A stretch of DNA of 64,000 bases from Tubiluchus corallicola (lineage: Eukaryota > Priapulida > Priapulimorpha > Priapulimorphida > Tubiluchidae). Both the position numbers and the translations under genes were made by a program. This document shows, in pieces, positions 32,191 through 60,990 of the stretch. The notes beneath the pieces were generated by a model. The model searched no databases. It was not told where the DNA came from and saw only the letters and a list, made by a program, of their open reading frames with translations. The DNA lies in assembly GCA_030141605.1 (NCBI GenBank), contig JAQGDQ010000091.1, positions 124,001 through 188,000 on the forward strand, written 5' to 3'. How positions within the stretch are numbered: the first letter of the stretch is position 1; the number at the start of each line of letters is the position of its first letter.

Positions 32191-32438
32191 CGTTTTACCA
32201 GCAATACGGGAAATTAGAGTTTAGAAACAACTGTTCAACGATTTTGGTTTTCGCAAAAGATTTCTTTTATTAGGTCTTTTAGATATTTGGCGCCATTCGC
32301 TTTGGTGTTTCTTCTTGTTTTGAAAGTGTAATTTGTAGTCGATGTTTAGCACTTTTTCTCTCGTCTTGCTAGTTTTTACGTTGTAAGTGTACGTTGTGAC
32401 CTGCAAATTGAAGGTCAAAAGAACTCTTTTACTTTCTT

Positions 32439-33569
32439 ATGCTGTTTCATTATTTTAGCAGGATATTACGTTTTTCACGATATAATATTGTAGATCCTGC
32501 TAGTGCTAGTCTACTGAGAAAATTCTGCAACCACAACAAATCTTTTTTAACGTTTAACGCGTGGAACCTATTGCCTCTTGAGAACACCTCGGTTCTGATC
32601 ATTTCTACTAGAAGCAGCATTAAGCTAAATAAGGAAATCATGACAGATTCAAAACGAAAAAGTGGTGAAAAATCAAAAGAAAGTGGACCAGCAAAGAAGT
32701 CTAAAAAATTCATAGATGAAACTGGCGATGGTGTAGCAACTACCTCTTTAGTAGGATTGGATTTCTCAGCAGGAGATTCCATGACAGCAGATGGTAAAGC
32801 CTGGAATATGAAAATCTCCTCATGGAATGTCAATGGTTTAAGAGCATGGATGCAGAAAGGGGGTATCGAGTATATTATTAAAGAAAACCCAGATATTGTT
32901 TGTTTACAGGAGACAAAATGCAGTGAAAAGGCTATTCCTGCAGAAGCATCAATTAGTGGTTACCATGTGTACTGGCTTTCTGGAGATACAGAAGGGTATT
33001 CGGGTGTAGGACTGTTTAGTAAAGCAGAACCAATTTCTGTTAAATTTGGCATAGGTGTAGATAAACATGATAAAGAAGGCAGAGTGATTACAGCAGAATA
33101 TGAAAAGTTCTATCTGGTAGGAGCATATGTACCAAATGCAGGGAAAAAATTAGTGCGTTTGGATTACAGGCAAACTTGGGATGAAGATTTCAGAAAGTAT
33201 TTGAAAAATCTCGATGGTAAAAAGCCAGTTGTGTTATGTGGTGATTTGAATGTGTCTCACAAAGAAATTGATTTGGCTCGACCAAAGAACAACCATCGTA
33301 ATGCTGGTTTTACTGATGAAGAAAGAGAGGGCTTCACAGAGTTACTTGACTCTGGTTTTACTGATGCTTATCGCCATTTTTATCCTGATAAAACTAATGC
33401 TTACACTTTCTGGACATTTATGATGAACGCAAGAGCAAAAGATGTTGGCTGGCGGCTTGACTATTTCGTTGTTTCCAACAAACTAGTTAAAAATTTATGT
33501 GATTCCATGATTCGCAAATCTGTCATGGGTAGTGACCATTGCCCCATTGTACTTCTTTTGTGTGTGTAA
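32439..33569 (+). CDS. APEX1: AP endonuclease (exonuclease III family)
   Basis: Cuts DNA 5' of abasic sites in base-excision repair, in the nucleus and perhaps mitochondria. One uninterrupted frame of 376 aa. The catalytic EEP domain starts near 124 (WNVNGLRAW) with all key residues: N132, E158 (QETK), Y230, D269/N271 (CGDLNVSH), D341, D366/H367 (GSDHCP). The mammalian redox cysteine before SWNV is serine here (KISSWNVNG), so Ref-1-type activity is not expected. Two starts are possible: ATG 32439 gives a basic, Arg-rich, acid-poor 67-residue leader resembling a mitochondrial presequence; ATG 32640 gives a 309-aa form starting MTDSKRK with a Lys-rich nuclear signal (71-90). A splice-acceptor-like TTCATTATTTTAG at 32447-32459 lies in the leader, so the long form may be spliced away. 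Confidence 0.95.
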
Positions 33570-42879: not shown

Positions 42880-43904
42880 CATTGCATGGAGTGATAAGGG
42901 AAAAAAGCCTAGTGTTATAGGAATTGTGGAAACCAATTAGGGGGAAGGAGAATTAGTGAAAATTGAGGGTTATAAAGTGTTCCAGCTGAATAGAAATAAA
43001 TATGGGGGCGGGCGGTTGTTATTATTGGTAATTAATAATGACTTAAAAAATGTAACAATAAAGGCAGGCCAGTATAATAAAGTAGGAGAACAATTATGGA
43101 TTGTAATGGATAATTCAAAAGTAAAATTATTGTAAAAGTAAAGTAGGATTATTGTATGCACCTCAGGAAAGTAGTACAGATAAAAAAGAAATGAAGAAAA
43201 TGTATGCACAAATATGAAAGCAAGTACAAAAAGCAAAAAATGAAAACCAGAAGTGCTTGCTTACAGGTGACTTTAATGCAAAAGTGGGAAATATTATCAA
43301 AGGTAATAATGATGAAACAACGTGGGCAGGAAAAATGTTACTAAATTTGATTAAAAAACAGAGTCTAGTAATAATAAATGCAACTGAAGAATGCTCAAGA
43401 ATTTGGACAAAAGAAGAAGCAGGGAAAAAATCTGTTATTGATTATATTATAATAAGTGCAAATGATGTAAATGCACGTAAGTTTACACTTGTTGACGAAC
43501 AAAAACTGTATGGAATGTACAGAGTGACTGGTAGTGGTGGGAAAAAAATTATATACACAGACAACAATACATTATATAGTGAATTTGATTGGTTTGAGAT
43601 TAACAAAATGAAAAGAGATAAAAGTGATGAGACAAAAAAGTTAGTAGTGTCTAATAAAAATACAATGAACAGATACAAAAATGAAACTGATGATCAAATA
43701 TTTAGCAAAGTCTGGAGCAGTAACAGATCCATTCAGAGCAAATACGATGGGTTAATTAATCAAGTTGCGGCAGTAGGAGACGGGTGCCTTTCTCTTACAG
43801 ATGACAGTAATAGAGGACAGCAACTGTTTCATTTTAGTAGCCTGATTTGTGAAGTGTGCCTGGCATGTGCAGGTGTCATTGCTACTGGCACACGTGCCAG
43901 TTAA
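42880..43904 (+). mobile_element. LINE endonuclease-domain fragment
   Basis: With small frameshifts the plus strand reads IGIVETN, KIEGYKVFQLNRNKYGGG, KVGEQLWIVMDNSKVKLL (42905-43135), then an open run with LLTGDFNAKVGN (43257 on), NLIKKQSLVIINATEEC, WTKEE and VIDYIIIS. These are the E-T, G-D-F-N and I-D-Y/F motifs of the endonuclease/exonuclease/phosphatase domain at the N-terminus of LINE ORF2. The frame runs into the EN-RT linker and ends at 43904 without RT. Stops upstream show it is inactive. Confidence 0.7.
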
Positions 43905-45791: not shown

Positions 45792-48700
45792 TTACAGTGC
45801 CTTTTGTGTTAAGGCAAACAGGGGTGCAGCAGTTTGGCTAAAGTGAGGAATAAATCTGCGGTAGAAACCTACCATTCCCAGGAAAGAACGCACCTGTGTT
45901 TTGGTGACCAGACGAGAAAATTGCTGTATGGCTTGGATCTTTTGTGGTTGTGGGCGTAGACGGTTACGACCTACCACATATGTTAGAAAATCGGCTTCCT
46001 TGCGAGCAAAGAAGCATTTCTTTGGCTTTACCGTGAGACCGACAGCCCTAAGACAATAGAGTACCATGTCAATATGTGTTAGGTGTGCATCCCAGCTTGG
46101 TGACTTTATGCGTATGTCATCGATAAATCCACGAGCACAATGTATGACTTCCTCAAGGATTATGTCTATTAACTGCTGTGAAGTTTGGGCGGCATTCTGT
46201 AGCCCAAATGGCATTACTTTAAATTCCCATTTGCCGAAGTCGGTGATAAAGGCAGATACTGGTCTAGACTCCTTGGCCAGAGGAATCTGCCAGTATGCCT
46301 TTGTCATATCTAGACTGGTAAGCCATTCTGATCCGTGAAGTTCATCAAGGATCTCGTCCATCCTTGGGATAGGATATTGCATAAAATGAGTTTGTTTGTT
46401 GACGGCTCGGAAGTCAATGCAGAATCTAATTGAGCTGTCTTTCTTGATCAAAATGACAGCAGGAGACGACCAAGGAGAGTCTGATTTTTGGATAACATCC
46501 AATCTTTCCATTTCTAGGAGCTCCTTCCTCACTGCTTCTTTCCTAGATTGGGGTATCCGATATGTACGTTGGCGTACAGGTGTGGTATCCGACAGCAGGA
46601 TACGATGCTCGATTATGTCTGTTTTCCCGGGTATATCTGTGAACATGTCTGCAAACTTGTTCAGCAGAGTACATAACTGCTGCTTTTGAACATTGGTAAG
46701 ATGATCAGGGATGTGTATGTCACTTACAAACTGCTGTTGCTCTGCACCAGGAGGAAATGCGTAGTCCGGTAACTCTGCTAATTTTATGGGCGAGGGTTGT
46801 AGGCTACCCTGCCAGTCATCATCAACTGTACTCAGATCATCCACTCCTGGAAAGGGTATTTCACTCTCTGAGCACTTGGCATACAAAGCGAAGCTTTCAG
46901 ATCTGCGCACAAAAGGCTTTAGTAAATTGACATGAAACGTCTTCGTATAAGGTTTTGCACCTTTCTTAGCAATTGAAACCTTATATGTGTGATCAGACAG
47001 TTTATCAATGACCTCAAATGGGCCTTGCCACAATTTTGAGAGCTTCTTCTTCGACTCAGGCAATAAAACAAGTACCTCCTGGCCCACTTCCAGTGACCTA
47101 GTGGACGACATCCTGTCGTACCACTTTTTCTGAGCAATTTTCGCTTGCCGTAGGGATTCATGAGCTTCTTCGGTACTGTTCTCCAGTTCACTGATAATTC
47201 GATCAACATAATCATCAACTTGTTCGAAAACAGGTGGCTCTAAGCAACCCCACCTTCTGCGCAAAGCAGCCATGGGTCCTCTAACGGGGAAACCATACAC
47301 CAATTCAAATGGAGAATACTTTAGAGACTCCTGAGGGACTTCTCTATAAGCAAAGAGAACGAACTGAAGTAACTCATCCCAGGGTAAAGACCTTTGGGTT
47401 TGTGCAAGCTTCCTCAAAGAACTCTTTAGGGAACTGTTAAACTTTTCTGTAACTCCCTGTGTCATCGGGTGATAGGGTGTCGCAAAGATACCTTTGATTC
47501 CCAGGGCTTCCTCTAAGTTGGCAATCAAAGTTGAAGTAAATTGTGTACCCCTATCGGAGAGGATTTCTCTCGGAATTCCGTGACGGCAAATGAATTGTAG
47601 TAAAGCACGAGCTACTGCTGAGGCAGTTTCTGATTCTAAAGCATAGGCATCTGGGTACCTCGTGGCCTGGTCCACAATGACAAGTGCATATTTACTTCCA
47701 GATCTGGTACGGGGCAAAGGACCAATTAAATCGATGCAGATTTGTGCAAAGGGTTCCTTTGTAATAGGCAATGGCTTAAGTGGGGCTCGATCTGCTTTGT
47801 GAAGTCTAGATGCTTTTTGGCAAGCAGGACAAGAACGAACATAGTTTTTAATGCATGTCAAAATCTTGGGCCAATAGTAATGTGCCAAGACCCTGTCAAT
47901 GGTCTTCCGCATACCCTGATGGGCAGAAGGCAACTTATCATGGGCCAACACCAACACTTGTTGCCTTCGAGGCTTTGGTACCACCAGCAAATCAGTCGGC
48001 ATACCACGTGAACTTCGACGCATTGTGTGCAACACGTTGTCACGCAAAAAGTATCCATTTCCTTGCTCCTGGCACTCTGCTTCAGGTTTCACCTGGTCAA
48101 ACAGATTTCTCAGGGTAATATCATCCCTTTGTTCTCTTGCCAAATCTGCACGGTTCATTAAGTTGATTAACATTTGTTGTTTTTGTGCTTGGGCAAATCT
48201 TTTTCGAGGTAATGGAATGTCAGAAGCTTTCAACTGCTGAGCTTCTTGTTCTTCCTTTTCTCGTGTTGCTTCAGCTTTCGCAGCTGAGCGAGTCATCACG
48301 GGCAAGCTGACAGTTTTTAACTGTCCATCCTGCTTCTGTTGCTTGCAAAGTTGTGTCTCACCATTTGGTGTAGAAGGAAAGGCCTCGTTCTTTTGCTTGG
48401 ACTTCTCTGGCAGAAATGGACTGATTTCTGTGATGAAGTCGTTTCCTAACAAAAGAGGGACTGGGCTGCCCACAGACACTGCAACAGTCAAATACCCAGT
48501 GGCATATGGTGACTCCAGTTCTACAACTGCTACCGGGCAAGATTTATCACAACTGTGAATACATAGTAAGTCATGGCTAACTCCATCGACATACTGTTCG
48601 GAGCGTACAAATCTAGGATTAACAACACTGTGTGTCGCACCAGTGTCTCTGAGTCCGACAATTTCCTGACCATTCAACTTGGCAGAAAAATAAGGCTCAC

Positions 48701-50231
48701 CAGATACGTACTTCTCAGGACAGCTTGCAGCTGTAGTAGCATCAGGAGATGAGTGCACAGCTATCAGCTGCTTAGATGACTTGCCTAGCTCTTGAGGCAG
48801 AATTTGCTTATTCCTATCAGATGTGACCATTGTTTTACGAGGGCACATTGCAGCATAATGACCCTGTTGTCCACAACGATAGCAACGCATACGTAATGTT
48901 GGGGGACCTGACTTCAGTTGTTCACGTGAATTTACACTAGGCTTTGGTTCCTTAAGCCGCTGTCCAGGGAGTCTACCAAAACTCACTCGTGGTCCCTGAG
49001 CAGAAAGGTAGGCGTCAGCTTTCTCTGCTACTTCGTCTACATCATAGATAGCATTCTTTTTCAGCCATAACGTCACCTCATTTGGCAAAACCGTCATAAG
49101 GTGCTCATATACGACTAAGTCCAATGCCTCTTGTTTAGTTTTTACTGACATAGCTGTAGCCCAATTATTTACTGCTTGACGCAGACGAACTATGGTCTGT
49201 TTACACGTTTCATCACGCCGTTTAATCATTTCACGAAAGACTAGTCTGTAACTCTCTGGAGTTATCATGTAGGCATCCAAAATGGCCGCTTTTACTTTAG
49301 GATAAGACCTTATATCTTCGTCGCTGATAAGTTGAAAAGCATAGCTGGCTTTCCCTGAAAGGTGAGGTGCTAGGTACCCAGACATGCGCTCTTCTGGAAT
49401 ACCATTCACTTTGCAGGATTTCTCATAATACATCAACCACTCAAGAATGGACTCTCCTTCTCCTTCTTTAAAAGGACGCACTTTCCAGATCTTGGACGAC
49501 GGGAAACCTAGAGAAGACTGCTCACCAACTGAAGACACATTAGCACCTGGATTAGAGTGTTCCATTCTCTGTAATTCCAAGTCACGTCGCTTCTGTTCTT
49601 CTTGGGCTTTCCATTCTCTTTCTCTTTCCTTTTCTTGTCTATCCGCCTCACGCTCATGTCGACGATCTTGCAATTCAAGTTCTCTTATCTGCCATTCTCG
49701 CTCGCTTTCTCTCAGCCTGTCTTTGTATCTCATTTCTGCTTCAACCATCCGGTTTCTTTCCAACTCCCGGATTAACTGTATTTTCTCATTAGGTGGAAGG
49801 CCTGTTAAATCATACCCTCTCGATTGATTGGCTTCATCTGTAACAGGGGTTGCAAATGATTGATGCATTGATAACTCTGGTATACTGAAACTCGGGGATG
49901 GTTGGGCTAGAGTTGTTGAGTCTGATATAGCTCCACTCGCAGCTCCGCCCACATTTATTGTATCTAGTAAAACATTGCCAGCTGTTTCACCTACATTGTT
50001 ATTATTTAGCTGTACAGGTGAAAATGTGTGTGTGTGCTCGATATGCGATTCAGGAGCTTCAACTCCTGACTCTTTTTGTAATTCTTCTTGTTTTTGCAGT
50101 ATTGCATTAGTTAACAAATCACGCCTTTTAGGCAAACCCTTCATGCCTAACTGCACTGTAGCGAATGCACGTAAGTCTGCGAACTGCATTTCATCAAGCT
50201 GTGCGGGGTTTTTCGTTGATATATCATCCAT
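45792..50231 (-). CDS. Gag-Pol polyprotein (Gag, PR, INT, RT; no RNase H)
   Basis: A single frame of 1479 aa from ATG 50231 (AGCATGG context; ATG 50249 also possible). Numbering below counts from the extended frame at 50270. Gag has an Arg/Glu-rich coiled-coil at about 170-235 and a CCHC knuckle CYRCGQQGHYAAMC at 463-476. Protease DTGATHS is at 542-548. Integrase follows: H777/H784/C814/C817 zinc site and D847, D906, E942, a D,D-35-E triad. Reverse transcriptase comes after it: DMTKAYWQIP at about 1321 and FIDD at 1382-1385. The order PR-INT-RT is that of GMR1-type gypsy elements, not of ordinary gypsy. The frame stops after FLGMVGFYRRFIPHFSQTAA plus 12 residues, just before RNase H would start. 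There is no stop or frameshift between gag and pol. Confidence 0.93.
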   Translation of the reverse strand: MDDISTKNPAQLDEMQFADLRAFATVQLGMKGLPKRRDLLTNAILQKQEELQKESGVEAPESHIEHTHTFSPVQLNNNNVGETAGNVLLDTINVGGAASGAISDSTTLAQPSPSFSIPELSMHQSFATPVTDEANQSRGYDLTGLPPNEKIQLIRELERNRMVEAEMRYKDRLRESEREWQIRELELQDRRHEREADRQEKEREREWKAQEEQKRRDLELQRMEHSNPGANVSSVGEQSSLGFPSSKIWKVRPFKEGEGESILEWLMYYEKSCKVNGIPEERMSGYLAPHLSGKASYAFQLISDEDIRSYPKVKAAILDAYMITPESYRLVFREMIKRRDETCKQTIVRLRQAVNNWATAMSVKTKQEALDLVVYEHLMTVLPNEVTLWLKKNAIYDVDEVAEKADAYLSAQGPRVSFGRLPGQRLKEPKPSVNSREQLKSGPPTLRMRCYRCGQQGHYAAMCPRKTMVTSDRNKQILPQELGKSSKQLIAVHSSPDATTAASCPEKYVSGEPYFSAKLNGQEIVGLRDTGATHSVVNPRFVRSEQYVDGVSHDLLCIHSCDKSCPVAVVELESPYATGYLTVAVSVGSPVPLLLGNDFITEISPFLPEKSKQKNEAFPSTPNGETQLCKQQKQDGQLKTVSLPVMTRSAAKAEATREKEEQEAQQLKASDIPLPRKRFAQAQKQQMLINLMNRADLAREQRDDITLRNLFDQVKPEAECQEQGNGYFLRDNVLHTMRRSSRGMPTDLLVVPKPRRQQVLVLAHDKLPSAHQGMRKTIDRVLAHYYWPKILTCIKNYVRSCPACQKASRLHKADRAPLKPLPITKEPFAQICIDLIGPLPRTRSGSKYALVIVDQATRYPDAYALESETASAVARALLQFICRHGIPREILSDRGTQFTSTLIANLEEALGIKGIFATPYHPMTQGVTEKFNSSLKSSLRKLAQTQRSLPWDELLQFVLFAYREVPQESLKYSPFELVYGFPVRGPMAALRRRWGCLEPPVFEQVDDYVDRIISELENSTEEAHESLRQAKIAQKKWYDRMSSTRSLEVGQEVLVLLPESKKKLSKLWQGPFEVIDKLSDHTYKVSIAKKGAKPYTKTFHVNLLKPFVRRSESFALYAKCSESEIPFPGVDDLSTVDDDWQGSLQPSPIKLAELPDYAFPPGAEQQQFVSDIHIPDHLTNVQKQQLCTLLNKFADMFTDIPGKTDIIEHRILLSDTTPVRQRTYRIPQSRKEAVRKELLEMERLDVIQKSDSPWSSPAVILIKKDSSIRFCIDFRAVNKQTHFMQYPIPRMDEILDELHGSEWLTSLDMTKAYWQIPLAKESRPVSAFITDFGKWEFKVMPFGLQNAAQTSQQLIDIILEEVIHCARGFIDDIRIKSPSWDAHLTHIDMVLYCLRAVGLTVKPKKCFFARKEADFLTYVVGRNRLRPQPQKIQAIQQFSRLVTKTQVRSFLGMVGFYRRFIPHFSQTAAPLFALTQKAL

Positions 50232-50586
50232 GCTAACCCTGAACTGCATAATACTACAAATCAAAATCACACACTGTCACAACCAAAACTCACTACCCTT
50301 TCACTACACGTAAACTATCACCATATCTGAACAAACCTGTCAACTCACTTCACCACCAAAACTCCAGACTCGGTAACAAAGTGGTAACACCACGAAATAG
50401 CTGATATCACACAGGGCTAAAACTATCGCTGCACACAATCAACTATTCACACAAATTTATCCCAATGACAATGTTGTAATAATTACTGCAAGACCGAGGA
50501 AGATTACTGTACCAATCTCAAGTACTGTCTCAAATATTTCCAATGTTAATAAAATGAATACTAACTGAACAAAATTAAACTAACAC

Positions 50587-54462: not shown

Positions 54463-54510
54463 TTAGGGTTAGGATTAGGGTAGGGTTAGTGTTGGGTTAG
54501 GGTTAGGGTA
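54463..54510 (+). repeat. Degenerate interstitial TTAGGG tract
   Basis: About eight TTAGGG or one-off units (TTAGGA, TAGGGT, TTAGTG) in a row. The TTAGGG type is the usual metazoan telomere repeat. A short internal tract of this kind is a scar rather than a chromosome end. Confidence 0.8.
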
Positions 54511-54861
54511 TTTAAATTGTGTGGGGAATTGTAAACTCATTCCGTTTCTTTTTTGTGAAATATGTTCTTTATTAAAACCCGCTTCAGGAGTGCCACTTTG
54601 AGCTGACCCCATGGCAGCTTGCTGTAAAATGAGTCACTATGTCCAGGATGCCCGACCAAGATGCATTGTGAAAACAGATTCACGCTTGCATCTAAGACGC
54701 ATACAAAAACACATGCTTCTTAGACACATGTCTAGAATGCACCATGCAAGTAGGCCTTTAGTAAGCCCAGTCACTTGGCTAATGACAGCTAGTTTTCACT
54801 ATGGTGTTTGCTTATTTTTCAGAAGGCTATTCATTTATTAGTAAAGACCTTGCCAGGAGAG

Positions 54862-57800
54862 ATGGAGCGAGCTACATTTGCGATGGGATGATTTTGGCAT
54901 CCTGAAGCACAGTTCGGTTGTGTTTCAGGAGTAATGAGTACTCGTGTTGGCTACTGTGGTGGTACTAGTGTCAATCCTAATTATAACAAAATGTAAGTAT
55001 ATTTTTTTCATTTTTGCTGTACAACTCTATGTTACCATGTAATTACAGCAAATCCTCAATGTAAAGGATCTATCAACTAGGTTATACATATAGACTATAG
55101 CACACCGTATTGAAAAAAATGACTAATAAGCATTCTGGACAAAATCAGCACTATAGAGATATACATAATGTGGGGAATTGCTACATAAAGTTGCACTCTG
55201 ACCATTAGTTAATGAGCAGCTTATCACGTTATCACTTTGAAAGTATGCCTTAGTAATAAACTGAGTAGCAGCCCCTATATAATATAATATATACATAATA
55301 TATATATAATATATAAAATTATGTAGTATATATCTATCTGCAAAACTGGTAGGTGTATTAGGTTGCGCTTTTTTTTAAATTGTTTTTTATTGTTATGGCA
55401 TTATATTGATCATGTTGTCATATTTTGTGTTGAGAGCCACTTTTGATCTGTAGACAAAGCAGACCGAACGTATGCACTTGCCCAGCCAGTAATGATGTCG
55501 TCTGGCCAATACCTATGTGCCCAATGCAATTGGAGCTTTCTCACAGCAAAATCCTGCATAAAATCCAAATAGCTCTATCAGAAATTGGAATGAAATGATA
55601 TTTTAGGGTCCTTTGAGGCATGTTAATATGCAAAAATTCTGCACTACTTTGTACAACAGTAACAGGCTAGGTTGCACTTCTATATGCCATGTGCAATGTG
55701 TAGGTAGTAATTATCTCATACTGTCTTATTACCTAATTTCACATCATACACCATACTGCACCATATTACCTTATCACAGTGCATCCTATCTTATCATATG
55801 CCATATTTTACAGTAATGAATGTTATCCTTCGGCAGCGATTTATGAAGAATCTTGTTAATGCCGTCAATGGCACTGAGGGAATTTTTGACACCTAATGAT
55901 TGTAAATACATCATGCAATAGCATTAATATCCTTTTGGGAAAAGTATTGTGACTTCCGTGGACTTACCACAGATCAACATTTAATTTTCTCTGCTGGTTT
56001 ACAGTACTTTAAATAATTACTGATAAGAATTGTCAGGCTTGGGTAATAAACAGCGGTGGGTCCTTCGAACTTCATAAGGCTATTAGAAGCACTAGACGTT
56101 ATTTCAACAAGGTATGTGTGCTTTTCCAGAAGTGCAATGAACTTTGCATGTCTTTGATGCAAGGTGTTTTATTACTTTAAATAATCTTTGATGAAATTTC
56201 CCAAGAGTCTTTGAATGTGAAAATGCTAACTATACTGTATGCAAATCTATGTACTATGCAGCTGTTTACCAAGCAGATAATGCCCAAGATTTGCTGATGT
56301 CACATGCTGGGTGGAGTAGTCAGAGGTTAGACCAAGAGGTTAAATCCTCTTACGTGAAGCTTAAAAGATTCTTCTTGAAATCTTATACAACTTACATACT
56401 GCCTTACGATATACACATAAAATTGCTTTATAAAGTAATATAATTTTTTAAGGTGATTTTTCTGCAAGTACTCCTTTTCTTGTCCTTTAATCATAGCTGC
56501 AGCAGTTTTTTGCAACCAGTTTACCAAAATTCTTTACTGTCAACAGTAATTTAGTTGTTGATTTTGAATTATTTTGTTTCAACGAATTTGTACCATGTGC
56601 AAATTGCTATATTAATTTTTTCCACTTATTATTGTGTTTTTATAGAGGAGACCACAGTGAAAGCATCGAGATTTCATTCGACCCAAACCTTACCTCTTAT
56701 GACACACTGTTGAACCTATTTTGGCAAAATCATGACCCACATACGCAGAAAAAGAATCAATATATGTCTGCCATTTTTTACCATGACAAAAAACAGCAAG
56801 AAGTAGCTACAGCTCAGCTTCAAAAACTGAAAGCAACAAAGAACAGGCCAGTTGTCACCAAAATTATGCCAATGGACAAATTTTATCAAGCTGAAGAGTA
56901 AGAGAGATTTTTTTCATATTAAATAATTACTGTTGAAGAAGACATTTACAGACATTGAAAGGATTTTAGTATTGAACTGTAGTTACTGCATGCATGTGTT
57001 GTAGTATTTTTAGTATTATGCAGATAATGTCTCTGAGATTTAGCCATGGGCAACTTGAAGTATGCCTACAGTGAAGACTATGAATATGAATCTAGAACTC
57101 TGGAATTCTTATTACTGATTTCTTAGTGATAGAGTATCTGTTGATGTTATTCTTGAAATAGGTGATGCTGTAATGAATGGGAAAAATAGTATCTGGTAAA
57201 AAATTCTACAGTTAAAATACCCAAAGAAAAAGGTGGCTGTACAAGCATTTGTCTTGAATCTAATGAAAGTTTATGAGAAATAGCAGCATCCTGATTACTG
57301 TGGGCAAACTGGCAGAGATTAGGAAGCAATAAAGAGAGATCCTGTGTTTGCTTTTTCCATAACTATCAATAAAAATGGCTCAAACAAGATAATTAAATTT
57401 GGCATGCAATATGTTCCCCCTCAATTTTGAGTTTGCTAAAAAAATGGTAAATTACAAGTGTGCTTCATAGTATTTAAACTAATTAATTATATATCCGTCT
57501 TTGATTTTGCAGATTGTGCACAAAATCCTGCATTTGTATTGAATGCAGATATCTGCAGTAGTTTTCTCATTAGTTATAGATGCATAAGATTTAGAGCCTT
57601 GAAAATAATCAATTTTAGGGCAATGCGCTTGCTTAGCTACAAATTAAAAAGGGGAAAGGCATTTTTAGGCGATAATAACTGGTTCTAGTGTTTTTTGTTT
57701 TCTTATAGTTATCATCAGAAGTATCTGTTACGTCGTCATCTAGACCTGATATCCATGTTACACTTCTCGGATTCAGAACTTGTTACTTCACATGTGGCAA

Positions 57801-57919
57801 CACGTCTTATGGGCTATTTGAATGGGTACGGAAATCGTCCTGATTTTCTAGCAGAAGCGGAAAAATTGAAATTATCTAGAAACATCATTGACTATGTTTT
57901 AGATCAAATGGGATGGTAG
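54862..57919 (+). CDS. MSRA: Peptide methionine sulfoxide reductase A, selenocysteine form
   Basis: Reduces methionine-S-sulfoxide in proteins. Exons 54862-54992, 56646-56897, 57709-57919, all GT-AG and in phase, 197 aa. The catalytic motif GCFW appears as G-TGA-F-W: the TGA at 54889-54891 replaces the active-site Cys codon (residue 10, ATFAMG-U-FWHPEAQFGC), while the rest of the frame is intact. Conserved blocks follow: STRVGYCGG (24-32), NPNYNKIGDHSESIEISFDP, NLFWQNHDP, QYMSAIFYHD, MDKFYQAEDYHQKYLLRR. A SECIS hairpin lies in the 3' UTR, so TGA is read as selenocysteine. The frame is also open for 13 codons upstream of this ATG to an acceptor at 54822, so an N-terminal targeting exon may exist. 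Secondary Cys at 19 and 29 could resolve the selenenic intermediate. Confidence 0.92.
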
Positions 57920-57994
57920 AACGTTTCTTGCTAAAACGTATTATTTTTTATTTGAATTAATTAAATGGTTTCACACTTGGAAACACATTATATA

Positions 57995-58062
57995 TATGTA
58001 TGTTTTGTATGATGCCAACAAGATAAATAGTGTCTTGTTAGCTGATTTTTATAAACAACATT
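57995..58062 (+). ncRNA. SECIS element in MSRA 3' UTR
   Basis: The core has TGAT at 58010-58013 and TGAT at 58043-58046, which form the tandem G.A quartet flanked by U.U. Between them GCCAACAAGA (58014-58023) pairs with TCTTGTTAGC (58033-58042), 10 positions with one C.A mismatch. The apical loop holds unpaired A's at 58025-58027, 12 bases after ATGA. Below the quartet TGTTT can pair with AAACA. This fits the eukaryotic form-1 SECIS consensus and begins about 90 bases after the stop. Confidence 0.85.
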
Positions 58063-58133
58063 GTATTAACTGTTTTTGCAAGTCTGGAAGTATTTTTGTT
58101 TTGCAAGACAAGACTCCAAGGTGCTATGAAAAT

Positions 58134-58139
58134 AATAAA
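58134..58139 (+). terminator. Poly(A) signal AATAAA after MSRA
   Basis: AATAAA about 90 bases past the SECIS core, so the element would be included in the mRNA. Confidence 0.6.
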
Positions 58140-59860: not shown

Positions 59861-60281
59861 GGAGTATTGGCGAGTTAACTAGGAGTTCTATTTTCGGCAA
59901 TTTTCACTTAGAAAATTGCTGACGCAAAGCCATTGTTGTGACGTCATCCATTGTATTCTGGCTATAATCTTATAGCTTTAATTCAGCAAAAAGCTGCTAC
60001 AACAAACAGTAGGCAGGATGTTACGGGCTTTGTGTTATAAATGAGGACTAGGTAGGATGTTCGCGTATTATTGATTACACGTGGTTTTTTACGCAAAATC
60101 TTTTGCGGGGCCTTTGCTATTTATTATATTATAGCACATAGTTTCAACTTTGTGAAAAATGTTTGGAATGGTTTTGTTGTAATGCTGTGCTGTTGGTGCT
60201 TGTGCTATAGGTGTCGTCATCATTGCCACCATCATCATCATCAACATCATGATCACCACGTGAGGTGGTGGATTTGATGTG

Positions 60282-60990
60282 GTGTGGTGGTGGTGTGCTT
60301 TGTGTGTTGTGCTATGGATGGTGTGGTGGTGTGATAGGGTGTGTGGGGTGTGGTGTGGGTAGTGTGGTATGGAGTGGATGGCGTGGTGTGTGGGTGGGTG
60401 TTGTGGTGCAGTGTGGTGTTATGGTGTGGTGCAGTGCGGTGTGATGTGGTGGAGTATTATGGTGTGGGTGGTGTGGTGTGGTGTGTGGGTGGTGCAGTGT
60501 GGTGTGGTGCAGTGGTATGGTGTGGTGCAGTGTGATGTGGTGGAGTATTATGGTGTGGGTGGTGTGGTGTGGTGTGTGGGTGGTGCAGTGGTATGGTGTG
60601 GTGCAGTGTGGTGTGATGTGGTGGAGTGGTATGGTGTGGGTGGTGTGGTGTGTAGGTGGTATGGTGTGGTGCAGTGTGGTGTGATGTGGTGGAGTGGTAT
60701 GGTGTGGGTGGTGTGGTGCAGTGTGGTGTTATGGTGTGGTGCTGTGCGGTGTGATGTGGTGGAGTATTATGGTGTGGGTGGTGTGGTGTGTGGGTGGTGC
60801 AATGGTATGGTGTGGTGCAGTGTGGTGTGATGTGATGTGGTGGAGTGGTATGGTGTGGGTGGTGTGGTGTGTAGGTGGTATGGTGTGGTGCCGTGCGGTG
60901 TGGTGCAGTGTGGTGCGATGAGGTGGAGTGGTATGGTGTGGTGCAGTGTGGTGTCATGAGGTGGAGTGGTGTGGTGTGGGTTGTGTGTTG
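60282..60990. repeat. GT-rich minisatellite with higher-order units
   Basis: The plus strand is almost only G and T. Units beginning ATGGTGTGGTGC start at 60421, 60517, 60593, 60661, 60731, 60807, 60880 and 60933, so the period is about 53-96 bases, mostly 68-76. Each contains GATGTGGTGGAGT and GGTGTGGGTGGTGTGG. An (ATC)n stretch precedes it at 60216-60252. Long frames on both strands are products of composition. Confidence 0.9.

Follow-up and report, generated by a model that had tools for sequence, protein, structure and literature searches.

The window analysed here, a stretch of 64,000 nucleotides lying within a contig of 670 kb and holding few long open reading frames (ORFs), contains on its forward strand a three-exon gene for methionine sulfoxide reductase A (MsrA). 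Its coding exons, at 54862–54992, 56646–56897 and 57709–57919, join into 594 bases, or 198 codons with a TAG (57917–57919) as the last, and encode a protein of 197 residues; both introns are of the GT-AG type, and the reading frame is kept across all three exons. Exon 1, recognized by its match to the PF01625 profile and followed by GTAAGT, encodes residues 1–43, including a putative selenocysteine (Sec) at position 10, Trp12 and Tyr41, whilst exon 2 contributes the active-site residues Glu49, Gln82 and Tyr83, and exon 3 His130, Tyr133 and a helical domain. Downstream of the hairpin described below lies an AATAAA polyadenylation signal (58134–58139, +). An earlier reading, made from the sequence only, had claimed that the splice junctions and the 197-residue frame are intact, and rejoining the exons showed its coordinates and length to be correct; no further disabling change of the kind that marks pseudogenes was seen across the 197 codons and four splice sites. 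Translation presumably starts at the ATG at 54862, and no second Met codon is found between this ATG and the nearest in-frame stop upstream. The TTTTTCAG at 54815–54822 could act as a splice acceptor, in which case the gene may have an extra exon upstream. A promoter scan 5' of exon 1 returned two sites against 1.0 expected, the patterns being of bacterial type and thus meaningless for an animal gene. A short, degenerate run of TTAGGG-like repeats is present at 54466–54511, upstream of exon 1.

Elsewhere in the window, a 385-codon open frame at 32412–33569 (+) carries an Exo_endo_phos domain (PF03372, E 6.2e-33) and is presumably an AP endonuclease of the APEX1 type, and a second open frame of 1494 codons at 45792–50276 (−) resembles the polyprotein of a Ty3-type retroelement. 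A GTGTGG-rich tandem array with overlapping periods of 5, 23, 68, 91 and 219 occupies 60264–60987.

The sole internal stop of the MsrA frame is a TGA at codon 10 (54889–54891, +), in the context M-G-TGA-F-W, and alignment both with relatives and with the best PDB match places it at the catalytic position of the G-C-F-W motif, where it is read here as Sec. In the PDB match it falls on residue 16, the catalytic residue of Clostridium oremlandii MsrA in the excerpted text of PMC4333827. All 14 relatives aligned, namely ten prokaryotic loci (L015–L024) and four further copies from the assembly (L001–L004, with L003 and L004 near-copies of one another), have Cys at this position, which bears out the sequence-only reading in its claim that the TGA sits exactly on the catalytic Cys codon. 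Its companion claim, that a random nonsense mutation would seldom strike this codon, also holds: in a Cys version of the gene, 91 single substitutions spread over 69 codons would make a stop and one of them lies at the catalytic codon, giving a chance of about 1 in 91 if all such changes are equally likely.

Profile and structure searches were performed with the protein in which the TGA was taken as Cys. The catalytic domain, PF01625 (PMSR), matched residues 4–137 with an E value of 9.7e-44 and 149.7 bits against a curated cut-off of 23.7, and TIGR00401 scored 130.7 bits against a cut-off of 108.1. At the C-terminus, residues 148–191 matched PF20939 (MsrA_helical; E 4e-8, 33.3 bits, cut-off 23.7), whose title in Pfam is 'Selenoprotein methionine sulfoxide reductase A, helical domain'. 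The best PDB matches (7c13, 4u66 and 4lwj, all MsrA chains; E about 1e-47) extend over residues 4–183 and so cover most of the helical domain; on our reading, which is based on the alignment and on the fitting residue numbers in the excerpt of PMC4333827, these chains represent the C. oremlandii selenoprotein. Of the active-site positions listed in that excerpt (C16, W18, Y47, E55, Q89, Y90, H137 and Y140), all eight are conserved, with Sec replacing Cys at one, the offsets having been placed by hand from the alignment to the best PDB match. The GCFWG motif appears as GUFWH in the protein studied here, and His as the fifth residue is shared by the ten prokaryotic relatives, one of the search patterns having required it. 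These relatives are about 39–44% identical to this MsrA over the aligned part; they are Cys-type MsrA proteins that share the catalytic domain (PF01625) and differ in having a catalytic Cys instead of Sec. The only Cys residues of the protein are Cys20 and Cys32.

Bacterial SECIS elements sit inside the coding region, whereas the candidate found here lies in the 3'UTR, starting 90 nt past the MsrA stop and ahead of the AATAAA. The predicted hairpin (57990–58066, +) consists of helix I, an internal loop, a non-Watson-Crick quartet, helix II with 11 pairs, and an apical loop, the outer helix spanning 57990 to 58066. A spacing scan places the 5' side of the quartet, AUGA, at 58009–58012 and its 3' side, UGAU, at 58043–58046, and the unpaired adenines of the apical loop lie at 58025–58027, 12 nt past the quartet. 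As a prediction, the hairpin satisfies the published spacing rules (quartet to AA, 10–13; AA to GA, 15–39), as given in the excerpt of PMC2375036. In a first, looser scan, two other sites of the window, near 43214 and 11835, were lower in helix-II energy; once helix-I energy was added, the MsrA hairpin came first among the 19 sites listed (15 on the forward and four on the reverse strand), and it also ranked top across the two strands of the window in a filtered scan, whose filter, on how near helix II lies to the quartet, was introduced after a first look at the results. When the segment 57920–58160 was shuffled with its dinucleotides preserved, none of 1000 shuffles equalled the score of the hairpin and five yielded any match at all. 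Over 234,812 strand-bases, made up of the window and six more, partly overlapping stretches of the assembly, it ranked third, after one site downstream of a selenophosphate synthetase (SPS) gene (−21.0) and another upstream of a glutathione peroxidase (GPx) exon (−18.6). In ordinary folding the hairpin stands out modestly from its shuffled versions (z-score −2.23), of which 4 in 200 were as good. The Rfam model SECIS_1 (RF00031), a match to which is no strict requirement, found nothing in the window or in the MsrA 3'UTR, nor anywhere in the genome; the genome search, which scored 150 out of 6565 candidates and gave no signal in any control, carries little weight.

The Sec machinery appears to be encoded in the same genome as the MsrA gene, judging from searches of the 343.5-Mb assembly (2344 contigs) that rested on tRNA-Sec, SepSecS, eEFSec and SPS. 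Two tRNA-Sec genes, both with the anticodon TCA, scored above the cut-off. One of them (L007) is of animal type, located on a 3.0-Mb contig with no ORF of at least 80 codons in the surrounding 3.1 kb. The other (L008, on C151) lies in a stretch that is 78% covered by such ORFs, and for that reason it is taken as bacterial; this second, bacterial-type gene on a bacterial-like stretch suggests that the sample may include a microbe that likewise uses Sec. SepSecS is represented by two partial exon matches on C615 (profile positions 1–40 and 30–70 of 389), the first of which contains a TGA in the frame read, and eEFSec by a partial domain match on C177 (profile positions 12–70 of 119).

A first alternative to Sec is that a Cys-MsrA gene was killed by a nonsense change at its catalytic codon and is now a young pseudogene, for which a single change from TGC or TGT to TGA would suffice and with which the presence of additional MsrA copies in the assembly would agree. 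PF01625 matched six places in the genome, a second query returned the identical six, and two of these are exons of the gene studied here. The remaining four copies (on C1761, C1191, C188 and C279) are intronless, have Cys at the catalytic position and are taken as bacterial, because the stretches around them are 94–96% covered by ORFs of at least 80 codons. An intact second Cys-MsrA beside a decaying copy, the finding that the sequence-only reading had named as speaking against its interpretation, was thus sought, and these four were all that turned up; the two genome searches revealed no other animal-like MsrA, Cys-type included, although a copy with very short exons could escape them. Were the gene a pseudogene, no MsrA would be known for the animal, and a dead gene would be expected neither to keep its 197 codons and four splice sites otherwise undamaged, nor to have been hit at precisely the catalytic codon, nor to carry a SECIS-like hairpin in its 3'UTR, all of which makes this explanation very improbable. 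Bacterial-like stretches were recorded on C1761, C1191, C188, C279 and C151 (L001–L004 and L008), and the nearly identical L003 and L004 represent an MsrB-MsrA fusion on such stretches. No stretch in a viral collection matched the query patterns.

Two further genes have a TGA where Sec would be expected. For SPS, four exon matches were found on C2218, each under the whole-protein cut-off, and the upstream part reads G-TGA-GCKVP, that is, the Sec form; SPS2 is described as a marker for Sec use in eukaryotes in the excerpt of PMC4561486. A strong SECIS-like hairpin (−21.0; L047, minus strand, C2218 at about 254623) lies 2158 nt past the assigned SPS stop and is perhaps the SPS SECIS, though it may have arisen by chance. 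A GPx exon on C4 reads NVASK-TGA-GFT; past the GPx stop, the filtered scan leaves a single hairpin, a weak one (−8.9) at 234 nt, and the hairpin of −18.6, located 5' of the Sec exon, is likely a false positive. The last exons of both genes were picked out by eye. Another GPx-like frame (L026), 255 codons long and free of internal stops, was noted at C1714:179870–180208. PF10262, the SelW/SelT type, matched nothing in the genome, for which short exons may be the reason. A search for COX1 (PF00115), a route to the mitochondrial code, also came back empty.

These genes bear on the idea that TGA encodes another amino acid or is generally read through, owing to a changed code or programmed readthrough, an idea to which the open frame beyond the MsrA TGA lends itself. 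It would call for no SECIS-like hairpin, and in the exons read for MsrA, SPS and GPx, TGA falls at known Sec positions whilst the assigned stops are TAG, TAA and TAG, respectively. Moreover, in-frame TGA is absent, stop to stop, from the window frames of 385 and 1494 codons, so TGA does not seem to be a general sense codon in this genome, and the idea is less credible still than decay. That the TGA is an assembly or base-calling error, or the gene a contaminant, deserves hardly any credence: bacterial-like contigs do exist in the assembly, but the GT-AG introns, the 670-kb contig and the few long ORFs of the window do not suit one, and an error precisely at the Sec position of a gene with a SECIS-like hairpin is implausible.

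Taken together, the 3'UTR hairpin, the Sec machinery, the two further genes with TGA at Sec positions and the helical domain support the reading that codon 10 of this MsrA inserts Sec at the active site, and we infer with high confidence that such recoding takes place. The proposal of Sec in the sequence-only reading is upheld by the same lines of evidence, with the silence of Rfam SECIS_1 against it. UGA codon 10 would be decoded through the host tRNA-Sec and eEFSec under the direction of the hairpin about 90 nt beyond the stop; the Sec selenolate would then attack the sulfoxide of an oxidised methionine, methionine would be released, and Sec would be re-reduced, probably by glutaredoxin, thioredoxin or glutathione. 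A close described parallel, the selenoprotein MsrA of C. oremlandii, shares the catalytic and C-terminal helical domains, the Sec position and the eight active-site positions, and differs in its GCFWG motif (GUFWH here) and in having one catalytic Sec and no Cys, as against the additional Cys20 and Cys32 here (PMC4333827, in excerpt). According to the same excerpt, the C. oremlandii enzyme almost loses its activity without the helical domain, is 20-fold more active than its own Cys form, and is recycled by glutaredoxin and not by thioredoxin. A much more tentative suggestion, and one that we consider rather doubtful, is that the Sec-MsrA is the only MsrA of the animal and that Cys20 or Cys32 is its resolving residue, forming a selenenylsulfide that would be recycled by thioredoxin.

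In the published counts of selenoprotein MsrA referred to below, we take the abbreviations Aq, Ta, Nv, Ct and Bf to denote Amphimedon, Trichoplax, Nematostella, Capitella and amphioxus. The excerpt of PMC3473315 gives one such gene for Aq, one for Ta, two for Nv, two for Ct, one of them incomplete and without a SECIS, one for Bf and none for Lottia, whilst Strigamia, Daphnia, Ixodes and amphioxus have a Sec-MsrA according to that of PMC4244043, which argues for an ancestral Sec form and independent conversion to Cys in insects and vertebrates. Sec-MsrA is, in these excerpts, already published for a sponge, a placozoan, a cnidarian, an annelid, amphioxus, a centipede, Daphnia and a tick (PMC3473315, PMC4244043), as the sequence-only reading had stated for some marine invertebrates, and the present case is less notable because the protein is known from several invertebrate phyla. 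As far as their descriptions in these sources allow comparison, the forms from marine invertebrates and non-insect arthropods resemble the one found here in combining a catalytic Sec with the Sec machinery. One more animal would thus join the record of Sec-MsrA, and automatic annotation may truncate or mislabel MsrA genes of this type. Should this MsrA be the only one of the animal, repair of methionine-S-sulfoxide would depend on the supply of selenium.
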